A stretch of DNA of 64,000 nt from Gammaproteobacteria bacterium (GTDB lineage: Bacteria; Pseudomonadota; Gammaproteobacteria; Xanthomonadales; SZUA-36), in contig JAJFLA010000049.1 of the NCBI GenBank assembly GCA_021772935.1, positions 1-64,000 on the forward strand, given 5' to 3'. The translations under genes and the position numbers were made by a program. Below the pieces are notes generated by a model, which worked only from the letters and a program-made list of their open reading frames with translations, made no database searches and was not told where the DNA came from. Of the stretch, positions 22,722 through 52,536 are shown piece by piece. Positions within the stretch are counted from its first letter, which is position 1. Each line of letters opens with the position of its first letter.

Positions 22722-22760
22722 CGCAAGCTGGCCGCGGCAGTGCCGAAAAGGAGAGAGAAA

Positions 22761-34703: not shown

Positions 34704-35151
34704 TAGAGTCAGATCCTTGTTATTTGTCAGCACACAAGCCTTGCTTCAGTCAATTAACAATAGTGTTGCAAGACCAATGAGCCAAGTTCAAGCAGTATCA
34801 TCAACAGGGCACAATATAGGACTGCTTGACCAGGCCAATAATGACCTAGATCATCATTGCTGCATATTGGTTTCGGGGTGTTTCTAAAGAAATGTATAGA
34901 AAATATGTACTTACTATTTAATGACTTATCATATTGATAAATAAAGAAAAAATATCCTTTATCAACATATATAGTATATATTATATGTACCTCAAGACCG
35001 AAACAGAAGTTTGCAAAACCCTCTTGTAAACCACAGTCATTATTGCAAGCAACTGATTTTAAAATGATTATTCGATAGTTACCTCTTCTGCCTTGCTGCT
35101 GGCACATAATTTGCATCTCACTATAGTGAAACAACAAAACGAGGTGGTCAC
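34704..35151. other. Divergent promoter region
   Basis: About 448 bases without a gene, strongly AT-rich at 34880-35000. It contains an imperfect FNR-like dyad at 34841-34854 (ATGACCTAGATCAT) and a sigma-54 promoter at 35100-35115. Open frames here are short and unconvincing. Confidence 0.65.
35100..35115 (+). promoter_or_regulatory. Sigma-54 (RpoN) promoter
   Basis: TGGCAC-ATAAT-TTGCA has the invariant GG and GC with the correct 10-base spacing, and matches consensus TGGCAC-N5-TTGCW fully. It starts 52 bases before the ATG of the receiver gene. A sigma-54 activator is encoded at 46321-47742. Confidence 0.8.
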
Positions 35152-35607
35152 ATGAATGATAAAGCCAATATCCTCATCGTAGACGATGAAGAGGTGGTTC
35201 GCCTCAGTCATTTAAGGAGTCTCGAAGGCACCGAATGCAACGCCTGCACAGCCGAGGATGGCAGGCAAGCGTTACAGGTCATGGAGCAACACCCTTTTGA
35301 TGTCGTTTTACTTGATCTGAGTATGCCGGGATTGGATGGTATGGATGTTCTCAAAACCATCAAGCAGCGTTGGCCTGACAGCCAGGTTGTTGTTATTACC
35401 GGCTACCCGAGCATTGAGTCCGCCAAGCAGGCGGTCAGGTTGGGTGCATTCAACTACCTGACCAAGCCGGTGGGCCCAAACGATGTCATCAAGGCAGCCA
35501 ATGACGCAATGAATCAAAAACGCTGGTCATTACGTAGTGAAAGGGGTGAGCAGCAAAAGACTGATATTTCTGCGCATCAGCGCGCTAAAAAACGAGTTAC
35601 CCATTGA
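35152..35607 (+). CDS. Stand-alone response regulator receiver (151 aa)
   Basis: GAGGTGG precedes the ATG. Residues 6-120 form a receiver domain with the acidic pair VDDEE, the phospho-acceptor Asp in VVLLDLSMPG, the Thr in VVITGYPS and the Lys in YLTKPVGP. The remaining 30 residues are hydrophilic with no output domain. It heads a same-strand run of genes leading to the nonahaem and cytochrome b proteins and is preceded by a sigma-54 promoter. As a CheY-like protein it may relay phosphate or bind a partner kinase or complex. Confidence 0.9.
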   Translation: MNDKANILIVDDEEVVRLSHLRSLEGTECNACTAEDGRQALQVMEQHPFDVVLLDLSMPGLDGMDVLKTIKQRWPDSQVVVITGYPSIESAKQAVRLGAFNYLTKPVGPNDVIKAANDAMNQKRWSLRSERGEQQKTDISAHQRAKKRVTH

Positions 35608-35626
35608 TCGGGAGAAGGAGAAAATT

Positions 35627-36226
35627 ATGAATACTAAATTACAAGTACTGGTCATTGACGATGATGCAGTTGTTGGTCGCAGTTTCGACCGGGTCCTCTC
35701 CGACAAAGGCTATCAAGTCAGCACTGCGCTGAGTGGTGAGGAAGCAATGGAAACCATTAGGGAAACGGACTTTGATGTTGTTTTCACCGACATTAAGATG
35801 CCGGGAATGGATGGTCTTGAGGTTGCTGAGCGTATCAAGGCTCGTTGCCCCTGGACACCGGTGGTTGTGATCACGGGTTACGGCACGCCAGATAATGAGG
35901 CTCAGGCATCGGTTCTGGGTGTAAGTGGTTTTGTACACAAACCCCTGACACCGGAGATCATTGAAAGCGTCACGCTGAAAGCCGTGAAAGAAGCGGAGGT
36001 GATCCTGGAAGCCGCGGAGCCATGTGAAACACAGGAGGTGATTGCCAAAACTGTTAGCAAAGCAGGTGTACATAGCAAAGCAGGTCTCATAGCAAAAAAT
36101 GTTGGTCTGTTCTTCGCCGCACCCTTTGTGGCCCTTGCCTATGTCATTGCGTTACCATTTGTCGGCTTCTACATGTTCGCAAAGCTGGGTCGCGAGGCCT
36201 ATGTGAAAAAGCATCTGTCCAAGTGA
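35627..36226 (+). CDS. Receiver domain with C-terminal membrane segment (199 aa)
   Basis: AGAAGGAG before ATG 35627 decides the start. Residues 5-120 are a receiver (VIDDDA, VVFTDIKMPG with the phospho-acceptor Asp, VVITGYG, FVHKPLTP). Instead of a DNA-binding domain the C terminus has a helix or hairpin (FFAAPFVALAYVIALPFVGFYMF) and a short basic tail. A receiver that inserts in the membrane is unusual; it may act on the neighbouring membrane complex rather than on DNA (inference). It lies 19 bases after the stand-alone receiver. Confidence 0.82.
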   Translation: MNTKLQVLVIDDDAVVGRSFDRVLSDKGYQVSTALSGEEAMETIRETDFDVVFTDIKMPGMDGLEVAERIKARCPWTPVVVITGYGTPDNEAQASVLGVSGFVHKPLTPEIIESVTLKAVKEAEVILEAAEPCETQEVIAKTVSKAGVHSKAGLIAKNVGLFFAAPFVALAYVIALPFVGFYMFAKLGREAYVKKHLSK

Positions 36227-36307
36227 CAGTTATGAGTGTCAGACGTAACCGGGGTTTACAACAAGCCCCGGTTAGAAGTCAAAACGGCCCATAAGAGGAG
36301 ATCTACC

Positions 36308-37720
36308 GTGATGGTCCGGAGTTTAATTGGCGGTTCACCAGTCAATATACCAGTTGTAGTGTCTGCGCTGGTTTTCTGCATGCTTTTTAGCACTATTTTG
36401 TACCCATCGCCAGTAGCCGAGATAAGTGCTGAGCCCGTCACTACGCAAGATAGCCCGGCGGACATCCCCGTGGATGTTGGCGCAGACCATTTGGCAATCC
36501 TCAAGAAAAACACCAAGTGCTTGAAGTGCCATAAAAAGAAGAAGTTCAAGCAGCTTGAAAGTGGTGAGCAATTGTCTCTGCAAGTTAGCCGGGAGGACTT
36601 TATCGGTTCAGCACATGGCGAAATCGGTTGTACCAGCTGTCATGAAGCCATTGGAAACAGAAAGCACCCATCTAAAAAAACCAATATCACTATCAACAGC
36701 CAACGGGATTATTCTGTGGAAATGAGTCAGAGTTGCCGTCTTTGCCACAACGAAAATTATACTCAGTATCAAAGCAGCATACATGCCTCAATGGTCGCGC
36801 AAGGTAGCACCGAAGCACCTGTGTGTGCAGATTGCCATAGCGCTCACGCGGTTGAAACGATGGCGGATTACAAACCGGAAACGGGCCTTCCCTGTAAGAA
36901 CTGTCACGAGAATCTCTATAATGCCTATGCCGAGAGCGTGCACGGAGAGGCCAGGTCAAACGGAAATGTTATCCGTGATACTCATATTCAGGCGCCGATC
37001 TGTGCGGATTGTCATCAGGCCCATGAAGTAAACCCGTTGGCAATTGGCGACACCTTGCGATCTACATGTATTGGCTGCCATGAGAATGTCATTTTGTTGC
37101 ATAACCAATGGCTGCCCAATGCAGGTACACATCTTGATATCGTTTCCTGCGCGGTCTGCCATGCCCCGTTTGCCAAACACAAATTCGATCTTCATCTGTA
37201 TGACAACATCTCCCAGCTTCCGGTCAGTCTGCAAGAGGGTGATGAGGCAATTCAGCAACAATTGCGAGTGATGGAAGAGGCGGGCGGCAGTGTAGTAGAT
37301 ACGCTGAAAACCTGGAGAGCAAAACAAGGTGATGACGAGCAAGGCCAGAACTCGGATATCTCTATTCGCGGTCGCATGGAAGTGATGTCCGGCATCGCAG
37401 CACATCAGATTGCCAGTAAAGGTTTTGCGCTCAGAACCTGTGATAGCTGCCACCAGGATGATCCCAGAAAAAACCAGAATGTCACGCTTTCAGTTACCAA
37501 GGCGGATGGAAGAAGAGAGAGCTTTGAGGCCAATAGGGATGTTTTGAAATCTGTTACTGCGGTCAATTCCATCAGCGATTTCTATGCGCTTGGTGGCAAT
37601 CCGAACAAGCTGCTGGATATGCTGTTGTTGGTTTCATTGGCGATTGGGATTGCCATTCCAATCGGCCATTTCACAATCGGTGAAATGATCAAAGAAAATA
37701 TAGAAAGAGGAGAGCAGTGA
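36308..37720 (+). CDS. Membrane-anchored nonahaem cytochrome c (470 aa)
   Basis: AGAGGAG is seven bases before GTG 36308; ATG 36311 is the alternative. An N-terminal helix and a C-terminal helix (LLDMLLLVSLAIGIAIPIGH) frame nine haem sites: CLKCH, CTSCH, CRLCH, CADCH, CKNCH, CADCH, CIGCH, CAVCH and CDSCH. It matches the soluble part of the protein at 32727 in haem number and in its first segment (KCLKCH followed by a basic stretch). Its stop overlaps the start of the cytochrome b gene by one base, so the two form a split version of the same quinol:c-haem module. Confidence 0.85.
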   Translation: MMVRSLIGGSPVNIPVVVSALVFCMLFSTILYPSPVAEISAEPVTTQDSPADIPVDVGADHLAILKKNTKCLKCHKKKKFKQLESGEQLSLQVSREDFIGSAHGEIGCTSCHEAIGNRKHPSKKTNITINSQRDYSVEMSQSCRLCHNENYTQYQSSIHASMVAQGSTEAPVCADCHSAHAVETMADYKPETGLPCKNCHENLYNAYAESVHGEARSNGNVIRDTHIQAPICADCHQAHEVNPLAIGDTLRSTCIGCHENVILLHNQWLPNAGTHLDIVSCAVCHAPFAKHKFDLHLYDNISQLPVSLQEGDEAIQQQLRVMEEAGGSVVDTLKTWRAKQGDDEQGQNSDISIRGRMEVMSGIAAHQIASKGFALRTCDSCHQDDPRKNQNVTLSVTKADGRRESFEANRDVLKSVTAVNSISDFYALGGNPNKLLDMLLLVSLAIGIAIPIGHFTIGEMIKENIERGEQ

Positions 37721-38406
37721 TGTCTACGATTCCTCCAACACAGGCACAGCAAAATGCCTGGAAAAAATCGCCTGATAGCGAGTTATACATTAATCCTCTG
37801 CCGGTACGAATCTGGCATTGGTTGAATGCTGTGGGTTTTGTAGCGTTGATCCTGACCGGCATCCAGATCAGGTATGCGAATATGTTTAATGTGTTGAGTT
37901 TCGAAACGGCTATCAAAACACATAACTGGGTCGCTTTCACCGTTATCGCCAACTACTTTGTCTGGCTGGGGTTTTATCTTTTCTCAGACAGGATTACGGT
38001 TTATCACCCTGAACTCAATCCGCGCAAGTTTTTTGACAAGGCTTTCAAGCAATTCATGTATTACAGTTACGGTATCTTCAAAGGTGAGCCAAGCCCGCAC
38101 AAGGTCCTTGCCTACGACAAGTTCAATCCGATGCAAAGCATCACCTATCAAATCGTGATGTTGCTGGTTGTACCTGTCCAGTTCATCACGGGCATCATGA
38201 TGTGGGATATCAAACGCTTTGAAGGCCCGATTGCGATGTTGGGTGGAATACACACTGTCGATACGGTCCATGTGTTGATATTCATCTTCTTTGTATCATT
38301 TACGCTGGTCCATGCCTACATGGGAGCGCTCGGCCATACACCCTCAGCACACTTCAAAGAAATGTTCACCGGTTACGAAGAAGCAGAGGAAAAATCAGAC
38401 CAGTAA
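37720..38406 (+). CDS. Cytochrome b subunit, thiosulfate reductase/hydrogenase type (228 aa)
   Basis: The start at ATG 37720 overlaps the previous stop (TGATG). About four membrane helices carry likely b-haem His in PVRIWHWLNAVGF, TAIKTHNWVAF, HTVDTVHVLIF and FTLVHAYMG. This family oxidises or reduces quinone and passes electrons to a periplasmic partner, here the nonahaem cytochrome. A terminator follows, closing the operon that starts with the two receivers. Confidence 0.87.
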   Translation: MSTIPPTQAQQNAWKKSPDSELYINPLPVRIWHWLNAVGFVALILTGIQIRYANMFNVLSFETAIKTHNWVAFTVIANYFVWLGFYLFSDRITVYHPELNPRKFFDKAFKQFMYYSYGIFKGEPSPHKVLAYDKFNPMQSITYQIVMLLVVPVQFITGIMMWDIKRFEGPIAMLGGIHTVDTVHVLIFIFFVSFTLVHAYMGALGHTPSAHFKEMFTGYEEAEEKSDQ

Positions 38407-38428
38407 CGACTTATAAAAGGGGTGGCTA

Positions 38429-38464
38429 GGAGGTTCCGGACTCCTCTTCGGGACCTCCCTTTTT
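38429..38464 (+). terminator. Rho-independent terminator
   Basis: GGAGGT and ACCTCC arms, extended inward by CCG/CGG, are followed by CTTTTT; it begins 23 bases after the cytochrome b stop. Confidence 0.8.
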
Positions 38465-39051
38465 ATCCGCCACCGCGTGATGAAATTGAATGACGTGATT
38501 ATTAAAATGCTCTACAGACTAAAGCCATTGGAAGCGCTTGATTTTCTGTGGAAAAGAGGTGGTGTTCCTTAACTTGAACTATGGGCCGAAGTCTGGGCGG
38601 GGTCCGGTTTCAGGCTTAAGTTTTAAAGACATCTGTATAATCTGATGTGTCAGTTTAAGCCTATATTTTTACCGCTTTTTACATGATCTAAATCAATGCA
38701 ATTGCTAACATAATTTGCTTTACTCTCCATAGGTTCATGCGCCTGGAGTCTTATGTATTCCATGAAGGCTAAAGTAACTTTATCATCCAGTTTTCCGGAT
38801 AAAAACCCTACTCAATATCGTTCGCCTGCTTTTGGTATTCAGGCGCGTGGAAACTTGTTTGAAGTAACTACAAGTGGTTTTTTTGTGAGAAGAAGTATGA
38901 GTGCTCAGCAGATATTGTCCAGTACCTTTAGTTTGGCCTGTGCGGGGGATCAGAGCGGGGCCATTGGCGTATGGAACAAAGCGACGGGTCGGGTTTTTTG
39001 GGCCAGCGGTGGTACGCGCAGCTGTTTTTGTCATTTCAGAGGATCAATAAG
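38465..39051. other. Long leader or intergenic region
   Basis: About 590 bases with no confident gene. It holds an FNR-like dyad at 38683-38696. A 100-codon frame at 38753-39055 has a possible TGGAG site and overlaps the next gene by four bases, but its Ser/Thr-rich sequence matches nothing I know, so it is not called. Confidence 0.5.
38683..38696. promoter_or_regulatory. FNR-like site
   Basis: ATGATCTAAATCAA matches TTGAT-N4-ATCAA at 9 of 10 fixed positions. It is about 355 bases before the receiver-GcvH gene, so a long leader or a small gene would lie between. Confidence 0.45.
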
Positions 39052-40230
39052 ATGATTGTCGCCTTAATTGTTGTTACCACAATCGTTGTGTTTGTTGTGG
39101 TCGATATTGTGCTCCGTCTGCTCCTGAAAAGGATGAGTGAAGCACGAATGAAAAAAGAAAGAGAACAGGCTCTGAATATCGGGCTGAAACTCGATGTGAG
39201 CGAAGAAGCACAAACGTTGACGCGGGTGGAACTAGACAATCCCAAAGCTCGAATTCTGGCTGTGGATGATGAAAAGATAATTTTAGACAGTCTTCGCAAA
39301 ATCCTCGTCTTCGCTGGCTATAGCATCGACACGGTAGAAAAGGGTGCTGAAGCTTTGGGCCTCATTCGTAAGAATGATTATGATTTTGTTTTCACCGATT
39401 TAAAAATGCCTGATATGGATGGGGTTGAAGTAACGAAAGCCGTTAAACACTTGCGCCCCGATATCGACGTCATCGTCATTACCGGTTATGCGTCGATAGA
39501 AACCGCGGTGGAAACTGTAAAATTTGGAGCGACGGATTATGTGCAAAAGCCATTCACTGAAGATGAATTACTTGAATTTGTTAAAACTGCATTGATAAAG
39601 CGGCAGGATAACCTGGAAAAGCAAATGCGTCACAAAATCCGCTTGATCAAACCGGGTACCAGTGAATCAAAATCCAAATTTGAATTGAATGTTCCGGCAG
39701 GGGTATTCGTATCGAAGCAACATGCATGGGCCAAAATCGAATTGAATGGTACCGTTCGGGTCGGGCCAGATGATCTTATAAGAAAGATCTTTGAGGAAAT
39801 TGATCATGTTGGGCTGCCGGAAACAGGGCAAACAATCGGAGAAGGGGAAACACTATTTTCGATAAATTATGCTGATTTCAGTTTGAAAATACCCTCTCCG
39901 CTCAGTGGAAAAGTCACTTCTGTTAATACAGAACATGCTGAACATCCTGAATGGTTAGCGATCAAACCGTTTGAGCTGAGTTGGATGTGCGGAATTGAAC
40001 CATCAAATCTTTCAAGAGAGTTGCCAAACCTCAGAATCGGGCGTGATTCGGTCGATTGGTATCAAAAGGAAATAGATAGATTCCATGAGCTTTCAAACAA
40101 GTTTCCAGAGAGCACCAGGCAATATAAATCAAGTGAAGCAGGAGAGGGCGAAGAAAACGGAAATGCAGATTATTTAAAACTTCTGGCTGAATTTTCAGAA
40201 CCGTTTCTGCAAGTTGAGGATTCAGATTAA
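39052..40230 (+). CDS. Membrane-anchored receiver fused to a GcvH-like domain (392 aa)
   Basis: AGAGGATC before ATG 39052 decides the start. One helix (residues 1-24) is followed by a receiver at about 65-185 (VDDEK, FVFTDLKMPD, VIVITGYAS, YVQKPFTED). Residues 205-330 resemble the glycine cleavage H protein: VFVSKQHAWAKIE, VRVGPDDL, IGEGETLFSI and IPSPLSGKV. The position of the lipoyl Lys, counted back from the PLSG turn, seems to be Asp, so this domain may not carry lipoate. It starts the run of genes to the HybA/HybB-like complex and is a paralogue of the protein at 45538. Confidence 0.82.
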   Translation: MIVALIVVTTIVVFVVVDIVLRLLLKRMSEARMKKEREQALNIGLKLDVSEEAQTLTRVELDNPKARILAVDDEKIILDSLRKILVFAGYSIDTVEKGAEALGLIRKNDYDFVFTDLKMPDMDGVEVTKAVKHLRPDIDVIVITGYASIETAVETVKFGATDYVQKPFTEDELLEFVKTALIKRQDNLEKQMRHKIRLIKPGTSESKSKFELNVPAGVFVSKQHAWAKIELNGTVRVGPDDLIRKIFEEIDHVGLPETGQTIGEGETLFSINYADFSLKIPSPLSGKVTSVNTEHAEHPEWLAIKPFELSWMCGIEPSNLSRELPNLRIGRDSVDWYQKEIDRFHELSNKFPESTRQYKSSEAGEGEENGNADYLKLLAEFSEPFLQVEDSD

Positions 40231-40270
40231 CCCCGGGATTTTTCCTTATTGAAAATTGAGTGGGACATTT

Positions 40271-41233
40271 ATGTTTAAATTTTATGTTTCGTTGGGATGG
40301 TTGTTCTTTCTCACTTTTTCGCTTTTATGTTATTCGCAGGATGCGTTTACCCGCCATGAAATCGTCGGTGCTCCTAAATGCAAGGCCTGTCACAAGGCCA
40401 AGACCGGGGACCAGTGGAAGATCTGGGCTGAATCTGCTCACTCCAGGGCTTTCGAGACCCTGGCGTCTGAGACAGCCAGAAAAATTGCTTCTGATCAAGG
40501 ACTCGGTGATCCGCAACAGGAAAATGCCTGTTTGAAGTGCCACGCCACCAAGGCATTTTTGGGTGACAAAGCGGTTGTCAGCGAAAAGGGGAAATACGTA
40601 GATAGCGAGGGCATTGGCTGTGAAGCATGTCATGGTCCTGGTTCCGACTACAAAGCCAAGAAAATCATGCTGGACCCGGTAGCTGCCAGGGCAGGCGGCC
40701 TGCTGATGATCAAGACGGCAGATGCCTGTGCCCAGTGCCATAGCGAGCAGAGCCCCACCTTCAAGGGTTTTGACTTCGAGAGCCGTTGGGCTGAAATTTC
40801 TCACCCGGTCCCGAAGGAGAAAGAAGTTCAAACCGACTCATCGGTAGTCATGGTTGAGATGCCGGATGAAATTTCCTTTACATCAGAGGTAGGGACGGTG
40901 CTTTTTCCTCACAATTTACATGTTAAAGCGCTTGAAATAGAGTGCGCTCAATGCCACCACCAGATCCATGCCATGGAGCTGGATACTCCGCATCCGGACT
41001 ACCTCACCTCATCCTGGATAAATTGCCAGACTTGCCATGATACGAATTCAGAAACCAGCAAAAAATATTATAAGTGCTCGGATTGTCACCATTCCGAGCC
41101 GGACAATATTGCGGATGAAACGCTCAGCTCCAAAGTTGTTATGCATAAAAGCTGTTGGAAATGTCATGAGACAGGTAGCGGTATTAAGGCAAGTGAAGGC
41201 TGCAGCGACTGTCATGTGAAGGAAGAGAAATAG
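40271..41233 (+). CDS. Nonahaem cytochrome c: c554-like part plus c7/c3-like part (320 aa)
   Basis: ATG 40271 opens the signal peptide (MFKFYVSLGWLFFLTFSLLCYSQ); the TTG at 40256 is less likely. The first half resembles cytochrome c554 (CKACH with WAESAHSRAF, CLKCH, CEACHGPGSDY, CAQCH). The second half resembles small class III cytochromes (FPHNLHVKALEIECAQCHH, CQTCH, CSDCHH, CWKCH, CSDCH). That gives nine haem sites. It is followed by a ferredoxin and a HybB-type gene, so it is probably the soluble electron acceptor or donor of that complex. Confidence 0.83.
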   Translation: MFKFYVSLGWLFFLTFSLLCYSQDAFTRHEIVGAPKCKACHKAKTGDQWKIWAESAHSRAFETLASETARKIASDQGLGDPQQENACLKCHATKAFLGDKAVVSEKGKYVDSEGIGCEACHGPGSDYKAKKIMLDPVAARAGGLLMIKTADACAQCHSEQSPTFKGFDFESRWAEISHPVPKEKEVQTDSSVVMVEMPDEISFTSEVGTVLFPHNLHVKALEIECAQCHHQIHAMELDTPHPDYLTSSWINCQTCHDTNSETSKKYYKCSDCHHSEPDNIADETLSSKVVMHKSCWKCHETGSGIKASEGCSDCHVKEEK

Positions 41234-41262
41234 CTGAGGTTTTGATTGGAAATTGTGAAACC

Positions 41263-41286
41263 CTGACAGGCTACCAACCCTGTCAG
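41263..41286 (+). other. Intra-operon hairpin
   Basis: CTGACAGG and CCTGTCAG arms with an 8-base loop lie between the nonahaem gene and the ferredoxin gene. It is followed by TTTAAGGAG, the next ribosome-binding site, so it may separate transcript levels rather than end transcription. Confidence 0.45.
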
Positions 41287-41300
41287 TTTAAGGAGCCATA

Positions 41301-42197
41301 ATGGATAGACGAGGTTTTCTAAAAACGTCAATTGTCGTCGGTGGTTGCGCTTTTGCGAGCAACAAACTTAACGCTCAGGAGACACGTGACTCAGAGGAGT
41401 TTGTGGGCGTTTTGGTGGATACAACCCGCTGTATTGGCTGCAGGGCATGCGAGGTTGCATGTGGTGAGGAACATGATTTGCTGGTTCCGGACGTGATTAA
41501 TGACGGGGCGCTTGAAAAGCATAGAAAGACGAGTGACAAGCAATGGATGGTCGTTAACAAGCACGCGACAGAAAAGGGTGATGTATTTGTCAAAACACAG
41601 TGTATGCACTGCTATCAGGCTGCTTGTACCGCGGCCTGCCCAACGGCGGCAATGAACAAAACAAAGAATGGGCCTGTCATCTGGAATGGCAGTAAATGTA
41701 TCGGGTGCCGGTATTGCATGATCTCCTGTCCCTTCGAAATGCCAAAATTTGAATACCACGAATGGAACCCGAAACTACAGAAATGCACGATGTGCTATGA
41801 ACGCCTCGAAGAAGGACAGAAACCGGCTTGTGTCAATGCATGTCCGACAGACACACTCATGTTTGGCACACGGTTAAAAAACCTGGAAATTGCCAGGCAT
41901 CGTATTTACAGTCACCCGGATCAATATGTGCACCATATTTACGGTGAGCACGAAGTTGGTGGAACCGGATATATTTATTTGTCGGCTGTATCATTTGACC
42001 AAATAGGGTTCAGGACCGATCTTGGCACAACACCCTATCCGGAATATACAAAAGAATTCCTCTACGGCGTCCCCATGGTTCTTTTCGGCGTCCCGGCCTT
42101 TTTGTTAGGGCTCAATGCCCTCGCAGGTGGCAGCGAACAAGGTATTGACGGCGAGATTGAGTCTGATACTGGTAAAGGGGGGGCAAGTGATGAATAA
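41301..42197 (+). CDS. HybA-type 4Fe-4S ferredoxin subunit with Tat signal and C-terminal helix (298 aa)
   Basis: AAGGAG precedes the ATG. The Tat motif DRRGFLK at the N terminus is followed by four Cys clusters (CIGCRACEVACG, CMHCYQAACTAACP, CIGCRYCMISCP, CTMCYER with ACVNACP). A hydrophobic helix (GVPMVLFGVPAFLLGLNAL) near the C terminus is typical of HybA. In hydrogenase-2 HybA links the enzyme to the HybB quinone subunit. Here no hydrogenase is encoded, so the nonahaem cytochrome at 40271 is the likely partner. The next gene overlaps by eight bases. Confidence 0.88.
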   Translation: MDRRGFLKTSIVVGGCAFASNKLNAQETRDSEEFVGVLVDTTRCIGCRACEVACGEEHDLLVPDVINDGALEKHRKTSDKQWMVVNKHATEKGDVFVKTQCMHCYQAACTAACPTAAMNKTKNGPVIWNGSKCIGCRYCMISCPFEMPKFEYHEWNPKLQKCTMCYERLEEGQKPACVNACPTDTLMFGTRLKNLEIARHRIYSHPDQYVHHIYGEHEVGGTGYIYLSAVSFDQIGFRTDLGTTPYPEYTKEFLYGVPMVLFGVPAFLLGLNALAGGSEQGIDGEIESDTGKGGASDE

Positions 42198-43410
42198 GGG
42201 CATCGTTGTAATCGGGTCGTTTGGCCAATTTTTTAGATTTTTAATCCAGGAGATGAAACCACGCGGACCATGGCTCACCACATTTAATGTTATCTCAATT
42301 CCGGTTATTTTGACCGGATTGGTTATTTTGTATTTCCGCTTCGTCTACGGTCTCGGTTCCGTGACAAATCTCACGCAGGAAACTCCCTGGGGTTTGTGGA
42401 AGGGTTTCAACGTGGTAGTTGGTGTTGCGCTCGCGGGTGGTGCCTACGTCATTACGTTCGTGGTTTATGTCATGCGCATGGAAAAGTATCATTCCATTGT
42501 GCGTGCCACTGTTTTGAGCGGACTGCTTGCCTACACTTTTTATGCTGGCACCCTTTTGCTTGAACTCGGGCGGCCTTGGTTTGCCCTAAATCCCTACATT
42601 GGTAATTCGTTTGGGTTCAGTTCAGTTCTGTTTCTGATTTGCTGGCATTTCCTGCTTTATATGGTGGCAGAGTTTATTGAGTTCTCTCCCGCTATCGCGG
42701 AATGGTTGCATTGGGAAAAAGCGCGCAAGATTCTCAAAAGCCTTACCCTCGGTACGGTCATTTTGGGGATAACGCTTTCGATACTGCACCAATCAGGCCT
42801 TGGAGCATTGTTTCTGATGGCCAAGTCCAAGATTCATCCATTGTGGTATTCGGAGTTTATTCCGATTTTGTTTTTTGTTTCCAGTATTTACGCGGGGCTG
42901 GCGATGATTATTGTCGAGGGAACCCTAAGCCGTCGGGTTTTCAAGCACCTTTTCACCCCCGATCACCGACACTCTTTCAACGACATCATCTTTGGACTGA
43001 GCAAAGGTGCGGCCATTACCATGTTTGTCTACTATTTTTTGAAAGCATTGTTGTTCATCCATGACAAACAATGGACCATGATCAACGACGGTTGGGGCTA
43101 CTGGTATCTCCTGGAAGTGCTTGGTTTCGTTTTAGTGCCGGGTTTTATGTTTGCCTTTGGCTTCAGGAACAGAAGTTTGAATATCATCAAAACTGCCTCT
43201 GTCTTGGCCCTGATCGGCATTGTACTCAATCGACTCAATATTTCCGTTATCGCGTTCAATTGGTATGTGGTTCCACACTACTTTCCAACCTGGCAGGAAT
43301 TCGTAGTCGCATTAACGGTGATATTTGCTGAAATCTGGGTATTGCGCTGGTTTGTTACCCGCATGCCGGTGTTTACTTCAGGTCATGGAACACAAAGGGC
43401 TGGAAATTGA
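42190..43410 (+). CDS. HybB-type quinone-interacting membrane subunit, NrfD superfamily (406 aa)
   Basis: ATG 42190 overlaps the ferredoxin stop and matches the family N terminus (MKPRGPWLTTFN, then ETPWGLWKGFNVVVGVALAGG). Some ten hydrophobic helices and the motif YAGTLLLELGRPW agree with HybB. It would pass electrons between quinone and the ferredoxin. Together with 40271, 41301 and the small protein at 43412 it makes a second quinol:cytochrome module distinct from the NrfC/NrfD one at 22761-24763. Confidence 0.88.
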   Translation: MNKGIVVIGSFGQFFRFLIQEMKPRGPWLTTFNVISIPVILTGLVILYFRFVYGLGSVTNLTQETPWGLWKGFNVVVGVALAGGAYVITFVVYVMRMEKYHSIVRATVLSGLLAYTFYAGTLLLELGRPWFALNPYIGNSFGFSSVLFLICWHFLLYMVAEFIEFSPAIAEWLHWEKARKILKSLTLGTVILGITLSILHQSGLGALFLMAKSKIHPLWYSEFIPILFFVSSIYAGLAMIIVEGTLSRRVFKHLFTPDHRHSFNDIIFGLSKGAAITMFVYYFLKALLFIHDKQWTMINDGWGYWYLLEVLGFVLVPGFMFAFGFRNRSLNIIKTASVLALIGIVLNRLNISVIAFNWYVVPHYFPTWQEFVVALTVIFAEIWVLRWFVTRMPVFTSGHGTQRAGN

Positions 43411-43411
43411 A

Positions 43412-43552
43412 ATGGATTCATTCACTTACGTAAATATTTTTGAAACGAAAGGTCTCGAGTACCTACTTTTGCTGAGTTTTTGGGCGCTGTTTTACTTTTT
43501 GATCCGGTACCTGTCGCCGCCGACGAAAGACAAACACAAGGATTCACATTGA
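43412..43552 (+). CDS. Small single-helix membrane protein (46 aa)
   Basis: The start is ATG 43412, one base after the HybB-like stop. The sequence is MDSFTYVNIFETKG, then one helix (LEYLLLLSFWALFYFLI), then a charged tail. Such mini-subunits often stabilise membrane complexes, and the coupling to the HybB-like gene suggests it belongs to that complex. I do not recognise a named family. Confidence 0.6.
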   Translation: MDSFTYVNIFETKGLEYLLLLSFWALFYFLIRYLSPPTKDKHKDSH

Positions 43553-43675
43553 CAAACACCTTGGCGAAGGATACCGGCGTGGAGTGTGAAGGAGTGACAA
43601 GAGCACAGGTTGTTTCCAAGGGGTATTAACAGGAATCAGACGGAAAAATGACAATGAATCCACAATGGGTGATCT

Positions 43676-45541
43676 GTGCTCGGTAGGAAAATAGGCTTTA
43701 AACTGACCTTTGGAGTGGTACTGACGGTCCTTTTGGCGATCGGAATTTTTGCCTTCTTCAATATACAGTCCGAAAGCAAGAGCTTGCTTACCGAGGTGGA
43801 GCGGCATGCGAATCAGTTAAGCGAGGCCGTTAAGTCAGATACCGAGTACGACATGCTTCACAACGATCGAGAGCGGATTCATGAGAGTATTCGACGCATC
43901 GGCAAACAGGAGAGCATAGACCGTATCCGCGTATTCAATAAGTCGGGAGAGATCATCTATTCCTCGGACTCGACCGAGATCGGAAAGATGGTCGACAAAA
44001 AAGCGGAGAGCTGTTATCGCTGCCATTTGGCAGGGAAACCCTTGGATCGCTTGGAGAAACAGGAGCGTACGCGTGTCTTTCGCCCCTATCAGGACTCATC
44101 GCGGTTGCTGGGCATCATAAACCCAATCTACAATTCGCGATCATGTTGGACGGCGGCTTGTCACGCCCATCCCCAAACACAGACCGTGCTCGGGGTGCTG
44201 GACGTCACTATACCCCTCATAGAGGTTGATCGGAACATCCGTCGCAGTCAGGTGGCGATAGTCATTTTCGCCGTCAGTGCCATCCTCATTCTCAGCCTTA
44301 TCGTCGGCTTCATGGTCCGGTGGTGGATTGACCGCCCGGTCAAAGAGCTTCTCACGGCGATGACACATGTAGCGGGCGGTAATCTTGCGCACCGAGTCGA
44401 AGTGAACAGAGACGACGAACTGGGGATGTTGGCAAGGTCATTCAACAATATGACCGAATCGCTGGCCCAGGCGCGGTTGCAGCTGTTCCAGTCAGACAAG
44501 CTTGCTTCGCTGGGGAGGTTGGCCGCTGGCGTGGCACACGAGATCAACAATCCGCTAACGGCCGTACTTACCTACAGCAGCTATTTGCTAAAGAGATCGC
44601 AAGGACAAGCCGAGACCTGTGATGACCTGCAAGTCATCGTCTCCGAAACCATCCGTTGCCGCGAGATCGTCAAGAGTCTTTTGGATTTTGCCCGACAGAC
44701 CGTGCCAAAGAAGCGTAAGGCTGACGTCAATGAGATCATCGGTCGCGCAGCACTTGTGATCGAGAATCAACTGGCTCTGGGACGGGTGAGGCTGGTCATG
44801 GACCTGGACGCCACCCTTCCCAAGGTGACGGTGGACGCCAACCAAATCCAACAGGTTTTCATTAACTTAATGGTTAATGCGTCGGATGCCATCGGGGAAA
44901 ACAACGGATCCATAGAAATCACAAGCAAAGCGATAAGCCTTCATCCCAAAGGAGTTCTGCAGATCAAGCGTGCTCTATGTCGAAAGCGGCATGATCTCGT
45001 CGACCGAAGGGTCCAGATCGACTCCAAACCCGCTATCAGCATGCGCTTTCGTAAAAAGAAGCATAGCGGAATCATCCACCTCAACCCCATGTACGGCTCG
45101 GACGAGCACCGCCTGAACGACATGCCCGCCCTCGAGGAAGACGTCGAGCTCCTATGCCCGGATTGCTCCACTTCGCTCATAGCCGAGGGTGAGCTCTGTC
45201 CAAAGTGCAGCTCTCCGATCTATGCCTTCGAAGTCCCCCTGAAAGGACTCGTTCAGGGTTGTTTGCACAATGGATGCGGCTGGCACCGTTGGGAACAGGT
45301 CGACTCCGGCTGGAACGATGAATTCGTGGAGGTCCGGGTAGCGGACGATGGTTGCGGTATTCCGAAGTCCCAGGTCCCAAAACTTTTCGAGCCATTCGCA
45401 ACCACCAAAGGCCAAAAGGGAACAGGTCTGGGCTTGGCCGTTACCTGGGGGATCGTGGACAATCACAACGGAACCATCACAGTTGAAAGCGAGGTTGGTG
45501 TTGGCACAAGCTTTATCATCCGGATTCCGGTGGGATCATGA
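43676..45541 (+). CDS. Sensor histidine kinase with haem-like periplasmic motifs and a zinc-ribbon insertion (621 aa)
   Basis: Start GTG 43676 is the best available; a stop lies close upstream in the overlapping frame with ATG. Helices at 10-30 and about 193-215 bracket a periplasmic domain with CYRCH (113-117) and CWTAACH (157-163), so c-type haem may be bound. A HAMP domain and the H-box HEINNPLTAVLTY follow. The ATPase domain is split: between the N-box (FINLMVNASDAI) and the G-boxes (DDGCGIP, GTGLGLAV) lie about 110 extra residues with CPDC, CPKC and a further C/C-G-W pair, like a zinc ribbon. The base composition is richer in GC than its neighbours. ATGA overlap with the next gene pairs it with that regulator. 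Confidence 0.85.
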   Translation: MLGRKIGFKLTFGVVLTVLLAIGIFAFFNIQSESKSLLTEVERHANQLSEAVKSDTEYDMLHNDRERIHESIRRIGKQESIDRIRVFNKSGEIIYSSDSTEIGKMVDKKAESCYRCHLAGKPLDRLEKQERTRVFRPYQDSSRLLGIINPIYNSRSCWTAACHAHPQTQTVLGVLDVTIPLIEVDRNIRRSQVAIVIFAVSAILILSLIVGFMVRWWIDRPVKELLTAMTHVAGGNLAHRVEVNRDDELGMLARSFNNMTESLAQARLQLFQSDKLASLGRLAAGVAHEINNPLTAVLTYSSYLLKRSQGQAETCDDLQVIVSETIRCREIVKSLLDFARQTVPKKRKADVNEIIGRAALVIENQLALGRVRLVMDLDATLPKVTVDANQIQQVFINLMVNASDAIGENNGSIEITSKAISLHPKGVLQIKRALCRKRHDLVDRRVQIDSKPAISMRFRKKKHSGIIHLNPMYGSDEHRLNDMPALEEDVELLCPDCSTSLIAEGELCPKCSSPIYAFEVPLKGLVQGCLHNGCGWHRWEQVDSGWNDEFVEVRVADDGCGIPKSQVPKLFEPFATTKGQKGTGLGLAVTWGIVDNHNGTITVESEVGVGTSFIIRIPVGS

Positions 45542-46326
45542 GCCTGGCACAGGATATCCTGGTCATCGACGATGAACCAATGGTTACTCAGGCCGTGGTC
45601 AAGGTTTGCCGCGCGGAGGGGATGACGGTCACCGCAGTAGATAGCGCTTGCAGGGCCCTTCGATGTTTGCAGGAGAACAAGTTTCGCCTGGTGCTCTGTG
45701 ACATCATGATGCACGAACTGGACGGTTTCCAATTCATCGAAGAGCTCGTCCGCAGAGGCATCCAGACGCCGGTAGTTATGATGACCGGGTACTCCACTGT
45801 GGAAATAGCGGTCAAAAGTCTTTCGGCGACAGGTGTTGTAGACTATATTTCAAAACCGTTCACTGCCGATGAATTGCTCACGGTTATCCTGCGTAGCCTT
45901 CGTTGCAGCATGCTTCTGGATGAGGCTGAGTCGGTCTGTCTGCCATCTAACGGCTCCATGAGCTACGTTCCTTGCCCTGCCGATTATTACAGGTTCGGGT
46001 ATGTTAGCTGGGTTTTGATGGAGGACGAGGGGACCGCCAGGATCGGTGTCAGCGACCTATTCCTAAGGGCAGCGGAGGGTATAAGGGGATTCGAGCTGTC
46101 AGTGCCAGGGGAAGAACTTGTGCAAGGAACTCCCTGCGCGGTCGCGATTTCTATGGACGGATCGGCGCATGGCATCATGTGCCCGATGGGTGGAAAAATC
46201 CTTGAGGCTAATGTAGATGCGCAATCGACCCCATCGGTGGTCGAGAAGGATCCTTATTTCAGAGGTTGGTTGTATCGGATTTTGCCGCCAAATCCAGAAA
46301 GCGATTTACGCTGGTTGAGTTTATGA
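45538..46326 (+). CDS. Receiver fused to a degenerate GcvH-like domain (262 aa)
   Basis: ATG 45538 overlaps the kinase stop. Residues 7-125 are a receiver (VIDDEP, LVLCDIMMHE with the phospho-acceptor Asp, VVMMTGYS, YISKPFTAD). Residues 145-250 resemble GcvH (YYRFGYVSWVLMEDEGTARIG, then CPMGGKILEANVDA). No Lys stands where lipoate would be attached. It has the same plan as the protein at 39052 but lacks the membrane helix. Encoded with a kinase, it is the likely phosphate acceptor; with no DNA-binding domain, its output is probably protein-protein. Confidence 0.82.
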   Translation: MSLAQDILVIDDEPMVTQAVVKVCRAEGMTVTAVDSACRALRCLQENKFRLVLCDIMMHELDGFQFIEELVRRGIQTPVVMMTGYSTVEIAVKSLSATGVVDYISKPFTADELLTVILRSLRCSMLLDEAESVCLPSNGSMSYVPCPADYYRFGYVSWVLMEDEGTARIGVSDLFLRAAEGIRGFELSVPGEELVQGTPCAVAISMDGSAHGIMCPMGGKILEANVDAQSTPSVVEKDPYFRGWLYRILPPNPESDLRWLSL

Positions 46327-47742
46327 AGTCTCGGGCTCCCCATTAGAGGTCGCGCGACGAATCCGAATGTCGTATTTTTTCATTAGCGCCTGAAAATTAC
46401 TCCGTTGCATGCCGGTTTGTGCGGCGCTTGCGGTTACGCTCCAGCCATTCCTCTTCAGTGCACCTAAAATGAAAAGTTTTTCAACATTTTCTACTGATTT
46501 CTGACGTGCAATCTTTTTGATATGTTTAAGTTCCTCGCTGGTCCGTGGCACATCCAGGCCAACCAGCGGTTGCATATCGAGGATATTGATCAGATGACCC
46601 TGACGGATGATGTCATCACTTGCGAGGATAACAGCGCGGTGTACGACGTTTTCAAGTTCCCTTACATTTCCCGGCCAGTCGTGGTTCATCAGCAGGTTCA
46701 TGGCACCGGCAGAAAACTCCCTGACTTCACGCTCTATTTCTTTGCTGAATTGATTGAGGAAATGAAAAGCCAACGCCGGTATATCGTCGCGGCGTTCGCG
46801 TAATGGTGGTATCTCGATCGGAAAAATATTGATGCGATAGTACAGGTCATCACGGAAGTCCTCGTCAGCAACCATGGCTTCCAGATCTTTGTTGGTAGCT
46901 GTGATCAACCGGATATTGACCTTCCGGGTCTGTGTATCGCCTACTGCCTTGAATTCTCTCTCTTCGATGAAGCGCAGCAGTTTTGCCTGGGTGGAGAGGG
47001 AAATATTACCGATTTCGTCCAGGAACAGGGTTCCGCCGTTGGCAGATTCCAATAATCCCATCTTGTTGGATACAGCACCAGTAAATGAACCTTTTACATG
47101 GCCAAACAATTCGCTCTCGAGCAAATTTTCGCTTAAGGATGCACAATCGACCGTCACGAAGGGTCGGTCCTTGCGCAGACTGTTGTAATGTATAGCGCGT
47201 GCAATCAGTTCCTTGCCGGTGCCACTTTCACCCCTGAGCATGACAGTGCTGTTGGTGGGTGCGCAACGGGCGACCAGTCGGTAAACAGTCTGCATCGGCG
47301 GGCTGGAGCCGATGATGTTTTCAAAGCTGTAACGGGCACTGACTTCATTTTTCAGGTTAACGTTTTCCTGCAGCAACTGCCTGCGCTCGAAAGCCCGCGC
47401 AACGACCAATTTGAGTTCCTCGGGGTCAAAGGGTTTCGGCAGGTAATCGAATGCGCCGAGTTTCATGGCTTTTACAGCGGTTTCAATTTGATTTAAACCG
47501 GTGATCATGATCACATCAATGTCCGGATGCGTTTCTTTGACCCGTTGTAGCACCTCAATACCATTCATTTTAGGCATCTTGATATCAAGGATGAGCATGT
47601 CGTAATCGTTCTCACCAATCTTTACAAGTGCTTCAACGCCGTTGCACGCGGTATCGACGTTGAATTCGTTGCCACAGAGAATGCGCAAACAACTCTGGAC
47701 GACGATATCCTCGTCATCAGCAATCAGTATCCGTCTTTTCAT
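46321..47742 (-). CDS. Sigma-54-dependent response regulator, NtrC family (473 aa)
   Basis: It has a receiver (IADDED, LILDIKMPKM, VIMITGLNQ, YLPKPFDP) and a central AAA+ domain with Walker A GESGTGKE, the sigma-54 contact loop GSFTGA, Walker B GGTLFLDEIG and an R-finger region. A Fis-type helix-turn-helix ends it (NGWSVTASAAQTGMQRSNFQALMKKY). It overlaps by six bases with the convergent receiver-GcvH gene, and on its own strand overlaps the end of the kinase gene by four bases. The near-perfect sigma-54 promoter at 35100 is a natural target. Confidence 0.92.
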   Translation of the reverse strand: MKRRILIADDEDIVVQSCLRILCGNEFNVDTACNGVEALVKIGENDYDMLILDIKMPKMNGIEVLQRVKETHPDIDVIMITGLNQIETAVKAMKLGAFDYLPKPFDPEELKLVVARAFERRQLLQENVNLKNEVSARYSFENIIGSSPPMQTVYRLVARCAPTNSTVMLRGESGTGKELIARAIHYNSLRKDRPFVTVDCASLSENLLESELFGHVKGSFTGAVSNKMGLLESANGGTLFLDEIGNISLSTQAKLLRFIEEREFKAVGDTQTRKVNIRLITATNKDLEAMVADEDFRDDLYYRINIFPIEIPPLRERRDDIPALAFHFLNQFSKEIEREVREFSAGAMNLLMNHDWPGNVRELENVVHRAVILASDDIIRQGHLINILDMQPLVGLDVPRTSEELKHIKKIARQKSVENVEKLFILGALKRNGWSVTASAAQTGMQRSNFQALMKKYDIRIRRATSNGEPETS

Positions 47743-49358
47743 ACGGTACTCCTTTGATCAACTGCATGGTTTGCACCTGTGGGTAGATAGATACGAAATT
47801 CAGTCCCTGTACCCACGATACTATCCACCTCGATTGTACCGCCGTGTGCTTCGACCGTACCGTGGCTGACTGATAAACCCAGCCCGGTGCCTTTGCCAAC
47901 CCCTTTGGTTGTAAAGAAGGGGTCAAAAATTCGTTGTAAATCTTCTGCAGAAATACCACAACCAGTATCGGTGATCGTAATTTCAGCCATGCTTGTTGGT
48001 GCGGTGCCTGATTCTGTAGCCGCTTGTGCAGAATGAAAGCGGGTTTTGATGGTAATGTTGCCCGCAGTTTCGATGGCGTGTTGTGCATTGACCAGCATAT
48101 TCATAACGACCTGTTTGATCAGGTTTTCATCGAGCCAGATCGCCGGTAGCTGCTCATCAAGGTCTGTAGTGATATCGACGTTGTCTAGCTGAGCTGGCTG
48201 TTCAATTAGCTGTGTAACTTCCTGAATCAGTTTGTTGAGGTTACAAAAAGTTTTTTCTGGTGTTTTTTCCCGTGAAAAATCAAGCAGCCTGCGGATGATG
48301 GTCGCGCACCTTTTGGTCTCGCGGATAACCAGGTCGAGATCTTCAGCATCACGACTGCCGTCGGCCAGATTTTTCCTGACGAGGTAGGAAAAGGTAAGCA
48401 CGCCGGTCAGAGGGTTGTTGAGTTCGTGGGCGATACCGGCAGCGAGTAACCCTACCGAGGCCAGCTTCTCACTTCGCGCAGTTTCGGCCTGAGCTTCGTG
48501 GAGTTCGTGTGTTGCCTCGTCCACTTTTTGTTCAAGTGTCCGCCCCCAGTCTTCCAGATCAACGTGTGATTTACGCAGTGCCCCGGTCATGCTGTTGAAA
48601 GAAGCTGCCAGTTGTCCAAACTCGTCTTTACTGCGAACCGGAATCTTCATTTCCAGATCTCCCGCGGCAAGTCTGGCGGCGCCGTGCTCCAGATCACGAA
48701 GTGGCAGATAAACCATGTTGTGTACCAGGTAGCTTACGAGCATACCTGCCAGCACGATAAACCCAAGTGACAAGCTGATGATGGTGTAAGTATTGGACCG
48801 CAGGGTTTGCTCTATTGTGCTCAGCGGATAAACAATATCCAGTACACCGAGCACAGATTGATCCTCTGCATGCTTGTGGCAACCGCCGTTTGCACAGGTG
48901 GGCTCGTTTCGAATCACGGCGGTGCTGCCTAGCATCCACCTGCCGTCTGTGCCGGTAAAAAACCGCGGCCTGCCTACCATCGGACTTTCCTGTTGGCTCT
49001 TTTCAGTCAGATGGCAGGCGATACATGCTTCAGCTTCCTGGTCAACCTGTGTGCCAATTTCCTCTTTTTGGGAAGAGTGAATGATGGTGCCATTCTTGCT
49101 CAGGATTCTAACTTTTTCGATGTCTCGCTGGGCACCTACGTCTTCGATAATTTTATTGACGTAGGAAGGTTTGTTTTGAAGCATTGCGAAGCGGGTACTC
49201 TTGATGAGCATTTCGGATAACTGGCCGCTGTGCCTGACGGCTTGCTGCAGTAACTCCTCACGGTTATTGCGCACAACCATCAATGTGAATACAAAAACGG
49301 CAATCGTCAATGCGATCATGAGATAAAACCCGACTTTGAATTTCAGACTGTTAGTCAT
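47739..49358 (-). CDS. Sensor histidine kinase with haem-like periplasmic motifs (539 aa)
   Basis: Helices near 8-28 and about 190-212 bracket a periplasmic domain containing CIACH and CANGGCH, the same CxxCH plus Cx4CH pair seen in the kinase at 43676. A HAMP domain, a short coiled coil, the H-box AHELNNPLTGVLTF, N-box NMLVNAQHAIE and G-boxes TDTGCGIS and GKGTGLGLSV follow. It is intact, with no zinc-ribbon insertion. It is coupled to the sigma-54 regulator downstream (ATGA) and would phosphorylate it. The periplasmic motifs suggest it senses redox state or a haem ligand. Confidence 0.88.
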   Translation of the reverse strand: MTNSLKFKVGFYLMIALTIAVFVFTLMVVRNNREELLQQAVRHSGQLSEMLIKSTRFAMLQNKPSYVNKIIEDVGAQRDIEKVRILSKNGTIIHSSQKEEIGTQVDQEAEACIACHLTEKSQQESPMVGRPRFFTGTDGRWMLGSTAVIRNEPTCANGGCHKHAEDQSVLGVLDIVYPLSTIEQTLRSNTYTIISLSLGFIVLAGMLVSYLVHNMVYLPLRDLEHGAARLAAGDLEMKIPVRSKDEFGQLAASFNSMTGALRKSHVDLEDWGRTLEQKVDEATHELHEAQAETARSEKLASVGLLAAGIAHELNNPLTGVLTFSYLVRKNLADGSRDAEDLDLVIRETKRCATIIRRLLDFSREKTPEKTFCNLNKLIQEVTQLIEQPAQLDNVDITTDLDEQLPAIWLDENLIKQVVMNMLVNAQHAIETAGNITIKTRFHSAQAATESGTAPTSMAEITITDTGCGISAEDLQRIFDPFFTTKGVGKGTGLGLSVSHGTVEAHGGTIEVDSIVGTGTEFRIYLPTGANHAVDQRSTV

Positions 49359-51405: not shown

Positions 51406-51553
51406 GGAAACCATACACAATTAGCTGTCGATTTATGACATTATAGTGTTACAAAATTCGCGGCTAGTAACAGTGCAAGATGGCTGGTAAATTCTGCGGG
51501 AAAAATTAACGCTATCGCCCAGAAGCGACATTGATCAAGGAGTGGGTAAGGTC

Positions 51554-52507
51554 ATGATAAAAACACCGGGATGCTGGAATTGTTTGGGCAGCGTAATCAC
51601 ACTGCTTATGTTGCTTTGTTGTTTCACCCAGGCTGTCGGTGATGAAACGATTGAACCCGCAGCCGAATATTCTAAAGGTGCCAAGCAATGTATGACTTGT
51701 CACAAGGAAGGCAAAGAAAGGCAGGCGCACGAAATATTCATGACCCCGATGGGAATCAGCAACGCACCGGATTCACCCTTTGCCGAAGGCGCTCACGATT
51801 GTGAAACCTGTCACGGCCCAAGCAAAACCCACCGAAAAAAGCAAAAAGACGGTTCGCGCCTGTCCCCTGCGGTTACCTTCGATGCTAAAACCCCGGCAGA
51901 AACCCAGAATGAGGTCTGTATGGCTTGTCACAATGATGAGCACACAATGCATTGGCCAGGTAGTATGCACGAGCAGGAAGAAGTGGCATGCGCCAGTTGT
52001 CACAAGGTACATGCTCCACGGGATCCGGTACTCGATAAACTGACCCAGCAGGAAGTGTGTTTTTCATGTCATGCTCGCATCCGTTCGGAAACTTTCAGAA
52101 ACAGTAGTCACCCGCTTCGTTTTGGAGAAATGAGCTGCAGTGACTGTCACAATCCTCACAATGGCAATAACGATTTTCTACTGATAAGTTCCACGGTCAA
52201 TGATACCTGTTATACCTGTCATGCTGAGAAACGCGGCCCCTTTTTGTGGGAGCACGCACCAGTAACGGAAGACTGTACCTTGTGCCACAACCCGCACGGT
52301 AGCAACCATGCAGCCTTACTGAAACAACGCCCACCATTATTGTGTCAGCAATGCCACTCGCCCGGTGGGCACCCGACTACGGCTTTTACCAGCGAAGTTG
52401 CGGAAAACAGTTTCCAGCAGAGGTTTTTACTTGCACGTTCATGCGTTAACTGTCATTCACAGGTTCATGGTTCTAACCATCCTTCCGGCGTAACGATTAC
52501 CCGGTAG
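51554..52507 (+). CDS. Decahaem cytochrome c, MtrA/DmsE/PioA family (317 aa)
   Basis: The start is ATG 51554 with AAGGAG upstream; GTG 51542 is open but too close to that site. A signal peptide ends TQAVGD. Ten haem sites are evenly spaced: CMTCH, CETCH, CMACH, CASCH, CFSCH, CSDCH, CYTCH, CTLCH, CQQCH and CVNCH, with GPSKTHR, HPLRFGE and DCHNPHNG typical of the family. In Shewanella and relatives this protein sits inside the MtrB-type barrel and carries electrons across the outer membrane. The porin gene follows directly, 29 bases downstream. Confidence 0.9.
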   Translation: MIKTPGCWNCLGSVITLLMLLCCFTQAVGDETIEPAAEYSKGAKQCMTCHKEGKERQAHEIFMTPMGISNAPDSPFAEGAHDCETCHGPSKTHRKKQKDGSRLSPAVTFDAKTPAETQNEVCMACHNDEHTMHWPGSMHEQEEVACASCHKVHAPRDPVLDKLTQQEVCFSCHARIRSETFRNSSHPLRFGEMSCSDCHNPHNGNNDFLLISSTVNDTCYTCHAEKRGPFLWEHAPVTEDCTLCHNPHGSNHAALLKQRPPLLCQQCHSPGGHPTTAFTSEVAENSFQQRFLLARSCVNCHSQVHGSNHPSGVTITR

Positions 52508-52536
52508 TGGTGGGTGAACAAGAGGTGTCAGAAACA

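Follow-up and report, generated by a model that had tools for sequence, protein, structure and literature searches.

A receiver domain fused to a GcvH-like domain without the lipoyl lysine accompanies HmcBC-like quinol:cytochrome complexes and two-heme-motif histidine kinases: a candidate redox module

Work on two-component systems has mostly concerned their control of transcription or motility. The subject of this study is a group of signaling genes in a 64,000-nucleotide stretch of DNA (hereafter the window) from a Gammaproteobacteria bacterium (assembly GCA_021772935.1, contig JAJFLA010000049.1, positions 1 to 64,000), in which a receiver domain is fused to a GcvH-like domain that has lost its lipoyl lysine (hereafter pseudo-GcvH). 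The fusion is encoded beside the iron-sulfur (FeS) and integral membrane subunits of an HmcBC-like complex and a histidine kinase whose sensor carries two heme motifs, and these partners were found together with it in several phyla. We read the group as a redox-sensing two-component module with its output on the respiratory complex instead of DNA, a reading that we hold at even odds; several patterns favor direct action of phosphorylation on the complex, which is what we infer.

Twelve proteins, here lettered A to L, are encoded at 35152-49358, A to J on the forward strand and K and L on the reverse strand. Five of them contain receivers, and Pfam confirmed the original prediction that four of these have no DNA-binding domain; K is the sole receiver protein with transcription domains, and its Fis-type helix-turn-helix was weak (E 0.0046, below the cut-off). 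Protein E (rrH1, 392 amino acids, 39052..40230, +) consists of an N-terminal membrane helix, recognized by hydropathy, a receiver and a pseudo-GcvH domain (39691..40041, +), with Asp in the place of the lipoyl lysine by sequence comparison. Protein J (rrH2, 45538..46326, +) is a soluble receiver–pseudo-GcvH protein whose start is overlapped by the stop of the kinase gene before it. The Pfam family GCV_H was matched over its cut-off in both E (E 2e-15) and J (E 5e-13), and the lipoyl lysine is absent from both domains. The AlphaFold model of E (pLDDT 84, pTM 0.55) is reliable for the domains and not for their mutual placement; in Foldseek comparisons its middle part matched receiver folds and its C-terminal domain matched H-proteins, with a TMt of 0.92 for the apo-H protein of E. 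coli (3a7l). Pseudo-GcvH proteins are presumably annotated today as glycine cleavage H-protein. Since lysine stands in the lipoyl column in only 1 of 150 aligned rows, equal to 1 of the 125 distinct domains, a role as working lipoyl carrier was rejected.

The E-type proteins were aligned as a set of 64 (the protein of the window and 63 of its 81 listed homologues). The receiver phosphorylation residues D72, D73, D116, T144 and K166 are kept in all 64. Mean identity to E is 78% in the receiver (minimum 66%) versus 50% in the GcvH part. The membrane helix carries a motif, F-x3-D-x3-R, in which F is kept in 63 of the 64, D in 59 (N in the other five) and R in all; judged from the alignment, such conservation appears unusual for a mere anchor.

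Between E and J are encoded a multiheme cytochrome c (F, 40256..41233, +) with 9 CXXCH motifs, of which many homologues have 5; a 4Fe-4S protein (G, 41301..42197, +) with a Tat-type N-terminus, read from its sequence, and a C-terminal membrane segment at residues 253-271; an HmcC/NrfD-like integral membrane quinol subunit (H, 42190..43410, +); and a histidine kinase (I or HK1, 43676..45541, +). The original prediction called this a HybA/HybB operon. An FeS/NrfD complex is indeed encoded, and it is better described as HmcB/HmcC-like: G scored 308 of 420 bits against HmcB (NF045715) and 199 of 263 against HybA, and H scored 374 of 550 bits against HmcC (NF045714) and 225 of 450 against HybB, so that all four equivalog cut-offs were missed. 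Nor does F qualify as the hexadecaheme HmcA, with 43.6 bits against a cut-off of 400 and its 9 CXXCH.

The close relatives were searched with the GcvH half of E in the genome itself and 80 others. Strong matches were found in 12 relatives and broken pieces in one more (G015), and the order E-F-G-H-I-J is held in their stretches as far as each contig extends; other genomes from this family and genus have no E-type GcvH, so the distribution is patchy. The same query was then used on one genome per bacterial and archaeal species, and the best 80 of the 126 confirmed stretches were analyzed. By record titles they come from Xanthomonadales/Lysobacterales, Woeseiaceae, Chromatiales, Burkholderiales and other Betaproteobacteria, and from Ignavibacteria, Bacteroidetes, Calditrichota, KSB1, Acidobacteria including cultured Geothrix, and Elusimicrobiales. 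These loci were picked by similarity to E and are kin by descent, and counts over them are therefore not independent trials; contigs of metagenome-assembled genomes can moreover be misbinned. Gene labels, outside the examples checked by Pfam, rest on home-made hidden Markov models, and membrane helices on hydropathy.

Within 8 kb of the fusion, HmcC was present in 67 and a heme-sensor kinase in 69 of the 80 loci, and each of the seven with neither lies on a contig of 3.2 to 8.7 kb. Forty-seven loci are well flanked, the sequence extending at least 5 kb to either side of the fusion, and among these HmcC was found in 47, a heme-sensor kinase in 46 (the exception is L102), and the receiver and the membrane helix of the fusion in 47 each. 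The expectation that these genes travel together was thus upheld. Narrowing the distance to 5 kb left both HmcC and the kinase in 45 loci and one of the two in the remaining two, always (47/47) on the strand of the fusion, in orders that vary (fusion first, fusion last, or kinase first). A rearranged order with the content kept argues for a functional bond. From genome sizes we estimate that a random gene would lie within 8 kb of an HmcC-like gene in well under 1% of cases, and a chance neighborhood was rejected on the 47 of 47. The soluble J-type protein is less constant than E, being present as a second receiver-GcvH in 16 of the 47. A compact unit of four genes, for FeS protein, NrfD, heme kinase and receiver-GcvH, occurs in Geothrix fermentans. 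A scan of viral contigs with the GcvH half found nothing. When 299 Pseudomonadota genomes were searched with the GcvH alignment, true GcvH swamped the result, and among the matches listed only the fusion of the window exceeded 90 bits; one other listed match (G368, 67 bits) lies within an open frame of 623 amino acids. A Desulfofustis metagenome-assembled genome has, on a contig of 4.3 kb (L083), a receiver-GcvH operon 84% identical to the domain of the window, which may be a recent transfer or a binning error; it is one row of alignment A2 and was not used as evidence for Desulfobacterota.

The two kinases of the group have the same kind of sensor. In HK1 and in a second histidine kinase, HK2 (L), the periplasmic segment between two membrane helices holds a single CXXCH and a single CX4CH motif (in HK1 CYRCH and CWTAACH, segment 43763..44320, +). 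Among 72 related kinases, the two of the window included, CXXCH was found in 70 and CX4CH in 70; of those missing a motif, two are short terminal frames and one is truncated at the N-terminus. Both motifs, together with M31 and H136, are invariant in all 44 aligned sensors. The modeled sensor (pLDDT 85) resembles Cache/PAS sensors such as WalK, with TM values of 0.35 to 0.60 of the query over the top eight Foldseek matches; 3b42 (GSU0935) was matched less well, with E 4e-5 and TM of only 0.35 to 0.49. By sequence no good match was found among solved chains (best E 0.57), and DUF3365 was not matched in the sensor kinases at E <= 0.01. HK1 also carries a cysteine-rich, zinc-ribbon-like insert in its ATPase half (residues about 489-515, window 45100-45250, with a sub-threshold match to DZR_2), absent from HK2; two CXXC motifs occur in the kinase half of 34 of the 72 related kinases. 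Its sequence suggests that the insert is possibly a second redox or zinc input.

A reverse survey was started from HmcC (NF045714, E <= 1e-50). Of 119 Acidobacteriota genomes, 43 held HmcC-like genes, at 57 places in all; of 118 Desulfobacterota genomes 45 did, at 62 places. The counts below cover 56 of the Acidobacteriota places, leaving out L129, a fusion locus of the first set, and 60 of those in Desulfobacterota, leaving out two loci of the genome of L083, one of which (L273) has no GcvH. Three further HmcC loci in fusion-bearing genomes (L270 to L272), all without GcvH, were likewise not counted, and some survey stretches overlap (G514 and G529 hold two HmcC genes each). A receiver-GcvH was found near HmcC in 9 of 56 Acidobacteriota and 0 of 60 Desulfobacterota loci, and an unfused GcvH-like protein in 12 of 56 and 14 of 60. 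Of the 26 loci with unfused proteins, 13 encode them as a membrane-bound and soluble pair, which mirrors E and J. All five tested passed the Pfam GCV_H cut-off. Lysine at the lipoyl place was found in 2 of 49 unfused rows (48 distinct) and in one of the nine survey fusions, or 3 of 57 distinct domains overall. Of the unfused proteins with a transmembrane helix, 7 of 33 rows (one gene is listed twice) have Asp at a like place in the helix. Desulfobacterota examples are the pairs without lipoyl lysine of L284 (4478-6436), L292 (5508-6942) and L287 (6362-7992); these and similar pairs adjoin HmcB/HmcC, a heme-sensor kinase and NtrC. The GcvH-like domain thus belongs with the complex even where it has no receiver.

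The survey further showed an alternation between NtrC and the fused receiver. Beside a two-motif kinase, NtrC was present in 16 of 16 loci with unfused GcvH and 6 of 6 with no GcvH (22/22 for all loci lacking the fusion), and in 0 of 9 with receiver-GcvH. In five further loci a kinase matches the sensor profile but the two motifs were not both found, and NtrC is present in four of these loci and not in L246; counting any kinase of the sensor profile, NtrC occurs in 26 of 27 loci without and 0 of 9 loci with the fusion. As the heme kinase usually has no NtrC nearby where GcvH has a receiver, the simplest account is that its output was moved from transcription to a complex-linked protein.

The mechanism that we propose is as follows. 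The HK1 sensor would bind two c-type hemes, predicted to lie in the periplasm, and sense how oxidized or reduced the cytochrome pool of the periplasm is; its input might alternatively be a heme ligand such as nitric oxide (NO). HK1 would phosphorylate the receivers of E and J, a transfer that we consider likely. The pseudo-GcvH domains, devoid of a lipoate site, could serve as docking modules, E being anchored by its F-x3-D-x3-R helix and placed against the HmcC/NrfD subunit, and J acting as the soluble partner. Phosphorylation might then alter the engagement of pseudo-GcvH with the complex and so gate or assemble quinol oxidation and electron export; for docking and gating the odds seem to us about even. 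A and B may act likewise on a nonaheme/cytochrome b module, and K and L may tune transcription in parallel. More tentatively, and with the balance somewhat against it, such control could be widespread: a two-heme kinase fed by the electron chain would phosphorylate a membrane-docked pseudo-GcvH subunit and gate export within seconds and without transcription, the receiver having joined a pseudo-GcvH already tied to the complex and thereby redirected the kinase from NtrC to the enzyme. If this is true, a phospho-switch lies in a respiratory operon of several phyla, including cultured Geothrix, and post-translational control of quinol oxidation becomes directly testable; the four-gene unit of Geothrix fermentans is suited to reconstitution, and the pseudo-GcvH family would have a function to chase.

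Several observations weigh against an output on the complex. The Tat-type signal of G should place the FeS subunit in the periplasm, so that in the window only HmcC/NrfD is within reach of a receiver in the cytoplasm. Of the HmcC loci, 29 of 56 in Acidobacteriota and 33 of 60 in Desulfobacterota showed neither a GcvH-like protein nor a two-motif kinase nor NtrC, and short contigs are not the sole cause, since 38 of 74 stretches of at least 16.5 kb also have none of the three; HmcBC-type complexes can therefore work without the module. The window itself offers an internal contrast, a second three-gene set at 21966-24763 (cytochrome with 5 CXXCH, FeS protein and NrfD, then a CBS-domain protein) that no receiver adjoins. 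In its favor, the pairwise distances of E track those of HmcB (correlation 0.90), HmcC (0.89) and the histidine kinase (0.83) over 51 loci, but such correlations also arise through shared descent. The alternation with NtrC has a nominal p of 5e-8, which overstates independence because all nine survey fusion loci cluster phylogenetically in Acidobacteriota, and NtrC and the fusion do stand side by side in some gamma- and betaproteobacterial loci, the window included. The idea that such receivers stand at every quinol:cytochrome complex was rejected on the second NrfD set and the many HmcC loci without them. As to the first of these points, the FeS protein of Geothrix fermentans has its first cluster motif from about residue 10, as does that of L128, which leaves no room for a signal peptide in either; the protein would be a cytoplasmic partner for the receiver, unless exported together with another protein, as was proposed for another unsigned FeS protein in the part of PMC10924467 covered.

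The adjacency of NtrC and a second heme-sensor kinase in the window, and the report that rrf1 and rrf2 beside Desulfovibrio vulgaris hmc regulate hmc expression (cited in the passages of PMC10924467 covered), would fit a phosphorelay adaptor. The receiver-GcvH would then act back on the kinase or hand its phosphate to a regulator elsewhere, or serve as a phosphate sink or membrane scaffold, and the true output would be transcription. We think this unlikely: strict NtrC lies within 8 kb in 7 of the 47 well-flanked loci, all gamma or beta, and in none of the other 40, and the receiver-less GcvH-like proteins beside such complexes are unable to relay through a receiver of their own. Slightly more doubtful still is an assembly factor, in which pseudo-GcvH proteins would be chaperones that insert or mature the FeS/NrfD subunits and the receiver would make assembly redox-dependent. 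The membrane-bound and soluble pair and its position beside HmcB/HmcC would fit, but about half of the surveyed HmcC loci have neither GcvH-like protein nor kinase nor NtrC, and we know of no maturation factor with a GcvH fold. A third alternative, in which the domain would have a metabolic binding partner in the cytoplasm or would still bear a group at some other residue and so tie carbon metabolism to respiration, is improbable with the lipoyl lysine lost (K in 1 of 125 distinct domains and 3 of 57 in the second set), even though 26 aligned GcvH-like domains have H11, W13, D27, D28 and K32 among their invariant residues and C100 at at least 90%, and it is weakly tested, neighbors outside the profiles used having been checked by Pfam in few loci only.

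Of the known systems closest to it, the module shares with Hmc of D. vulgaris the HmcB/HmcC-type FeS and NrfD subunits, a multiheme cytochrome and regulator genes beside the operon. It differs in that the rrf genes are cited as regulators of expression, that the covered passages of PMC10924467 mention neither a GcvH fusion nor a heme kinase, and in heme count (16 in HmcA, 9 in F, 5 in many homologues of F). The same passages remark that flanking genes are not conserved around the related FeS/HybB modules studied there, and those covered of PMC4215793 hold nothing on regulators of hmc. The fusions have the GcvH fold, by sequence and model, in common with GcvH and, going by its abstract, with the lipoate-binding LbpA; they are unlike both in having no lipoyl lysine, a fused receiver and, in E, a membrane helix. 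From what the sources consulted in part describe, the Geobacter chemoreceptors GSU0582 and GSU0935 and sCache_heme (DUF3365) share with the sensors of the window a periplasmic Cache/PAS-like fold and a c-heme motif, whereas the window sensors have two motifs (CXXCH and CX4CH) and are sited in a histidine kinase. A c-heme Cache family with NO-sensor properties is described in the portion of PMC12889525 covered. With CheY-type regulators the fusions share an intact phospho-receiver and a non-DNA output, but here the output part is encoded in a respiratory operon and is either pseudo-GcvH or a membrane tail. Receivers without a DNA output are common among such organisms, as a DNA-binding domain is present in 29 of the 72 response regulators of D. 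vulgaris (PMC3333781, in part). The earlier view of the system as possibly undescribed is consistent with the literature: no description of receiver-GcvH with cytochromes was found among the matches listed, which covered few subscription papers.

Upstream of E lie a stand-alone CheY-like receiver (A, 151 amino acids, 35152..35607, +; Pfam Response_reg E 7.8e-30), a receiver whose C-terminal region includes a membrane segment (B, 199 amino acids, 35627..36226, +; Pfam E 4.3e-28; residues 162-180 of the frame read), a nonaheme cytochrome c (C, 36236..37720, +; 9 CXXCH, membrane segments at 38-56 and 459-477) and a cytochrome b561-type membrane subunit (D, 37717..38406, +; Ni_hydr_CYTB E 2.5e-25). 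On the reverse strand follow the NtrC-type sigma-54 response regulator K (46321..47742, -; sigma-54 AAA) and HK2 (47739..49358, -). All had been proposed as one set with E to J. That holds for the core of receiver-GcvH, HmcBC-like subunits and two-heme-motif kinase; A and B instead follow the nonaheme/cytochrome b module, and the sigma-54 regulator, present in the window as predicted, is not a constant companion of the fusion. K and L were accordingly rejected as obligatory members, strict NtrC being limited to the seven well-flanked loci given above. In one relative (L066) A to D stand with the E to J set, and in L090 (Woeseiaceae) the entire A to L set is collinear with the window, with one extra receiver-GcvH. 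In Betaproteobacteria, loci such as L107 and L112 lack only J of the set, and their C and D have shifted to a position behind the kinase. Lone receivers of the A type occur in like positions in gamma and beta loci, as does the membrane-tail pattern of B. A membrane-tailed receiver was found in 9 of 11 well-flanked loci with the nonaheme/cytochrome b module versus 0 of 36 without it, although these nine are gamma and beta lineages and hence not independent; the two module loci lacking it are L103 and L162, the latter with a 16-heme protein and no clear C. Both cytochrome modules thus seem to be accompanied by a pair of receivers each, of which one is soluble and the other bound to the membrane.

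Some neighboring genes were also noted. At 32727-34733 a single protein with nine CXXCH and a multi-helix membrane part adjoins A and B, and does so again in L066/L095, which are one and the same contig. A decaheme cytochrome and MtrB/PioB porin pair at 51542-54645 points to extracellular electron transfer in the organism of the window. Directly beside the signaling genes, at 49365-50762, is encoded a protein of the flavin-containing amine oxidase family, which from its family we take to be perhaps a HemY-type protoporphyrinogen oxidase.

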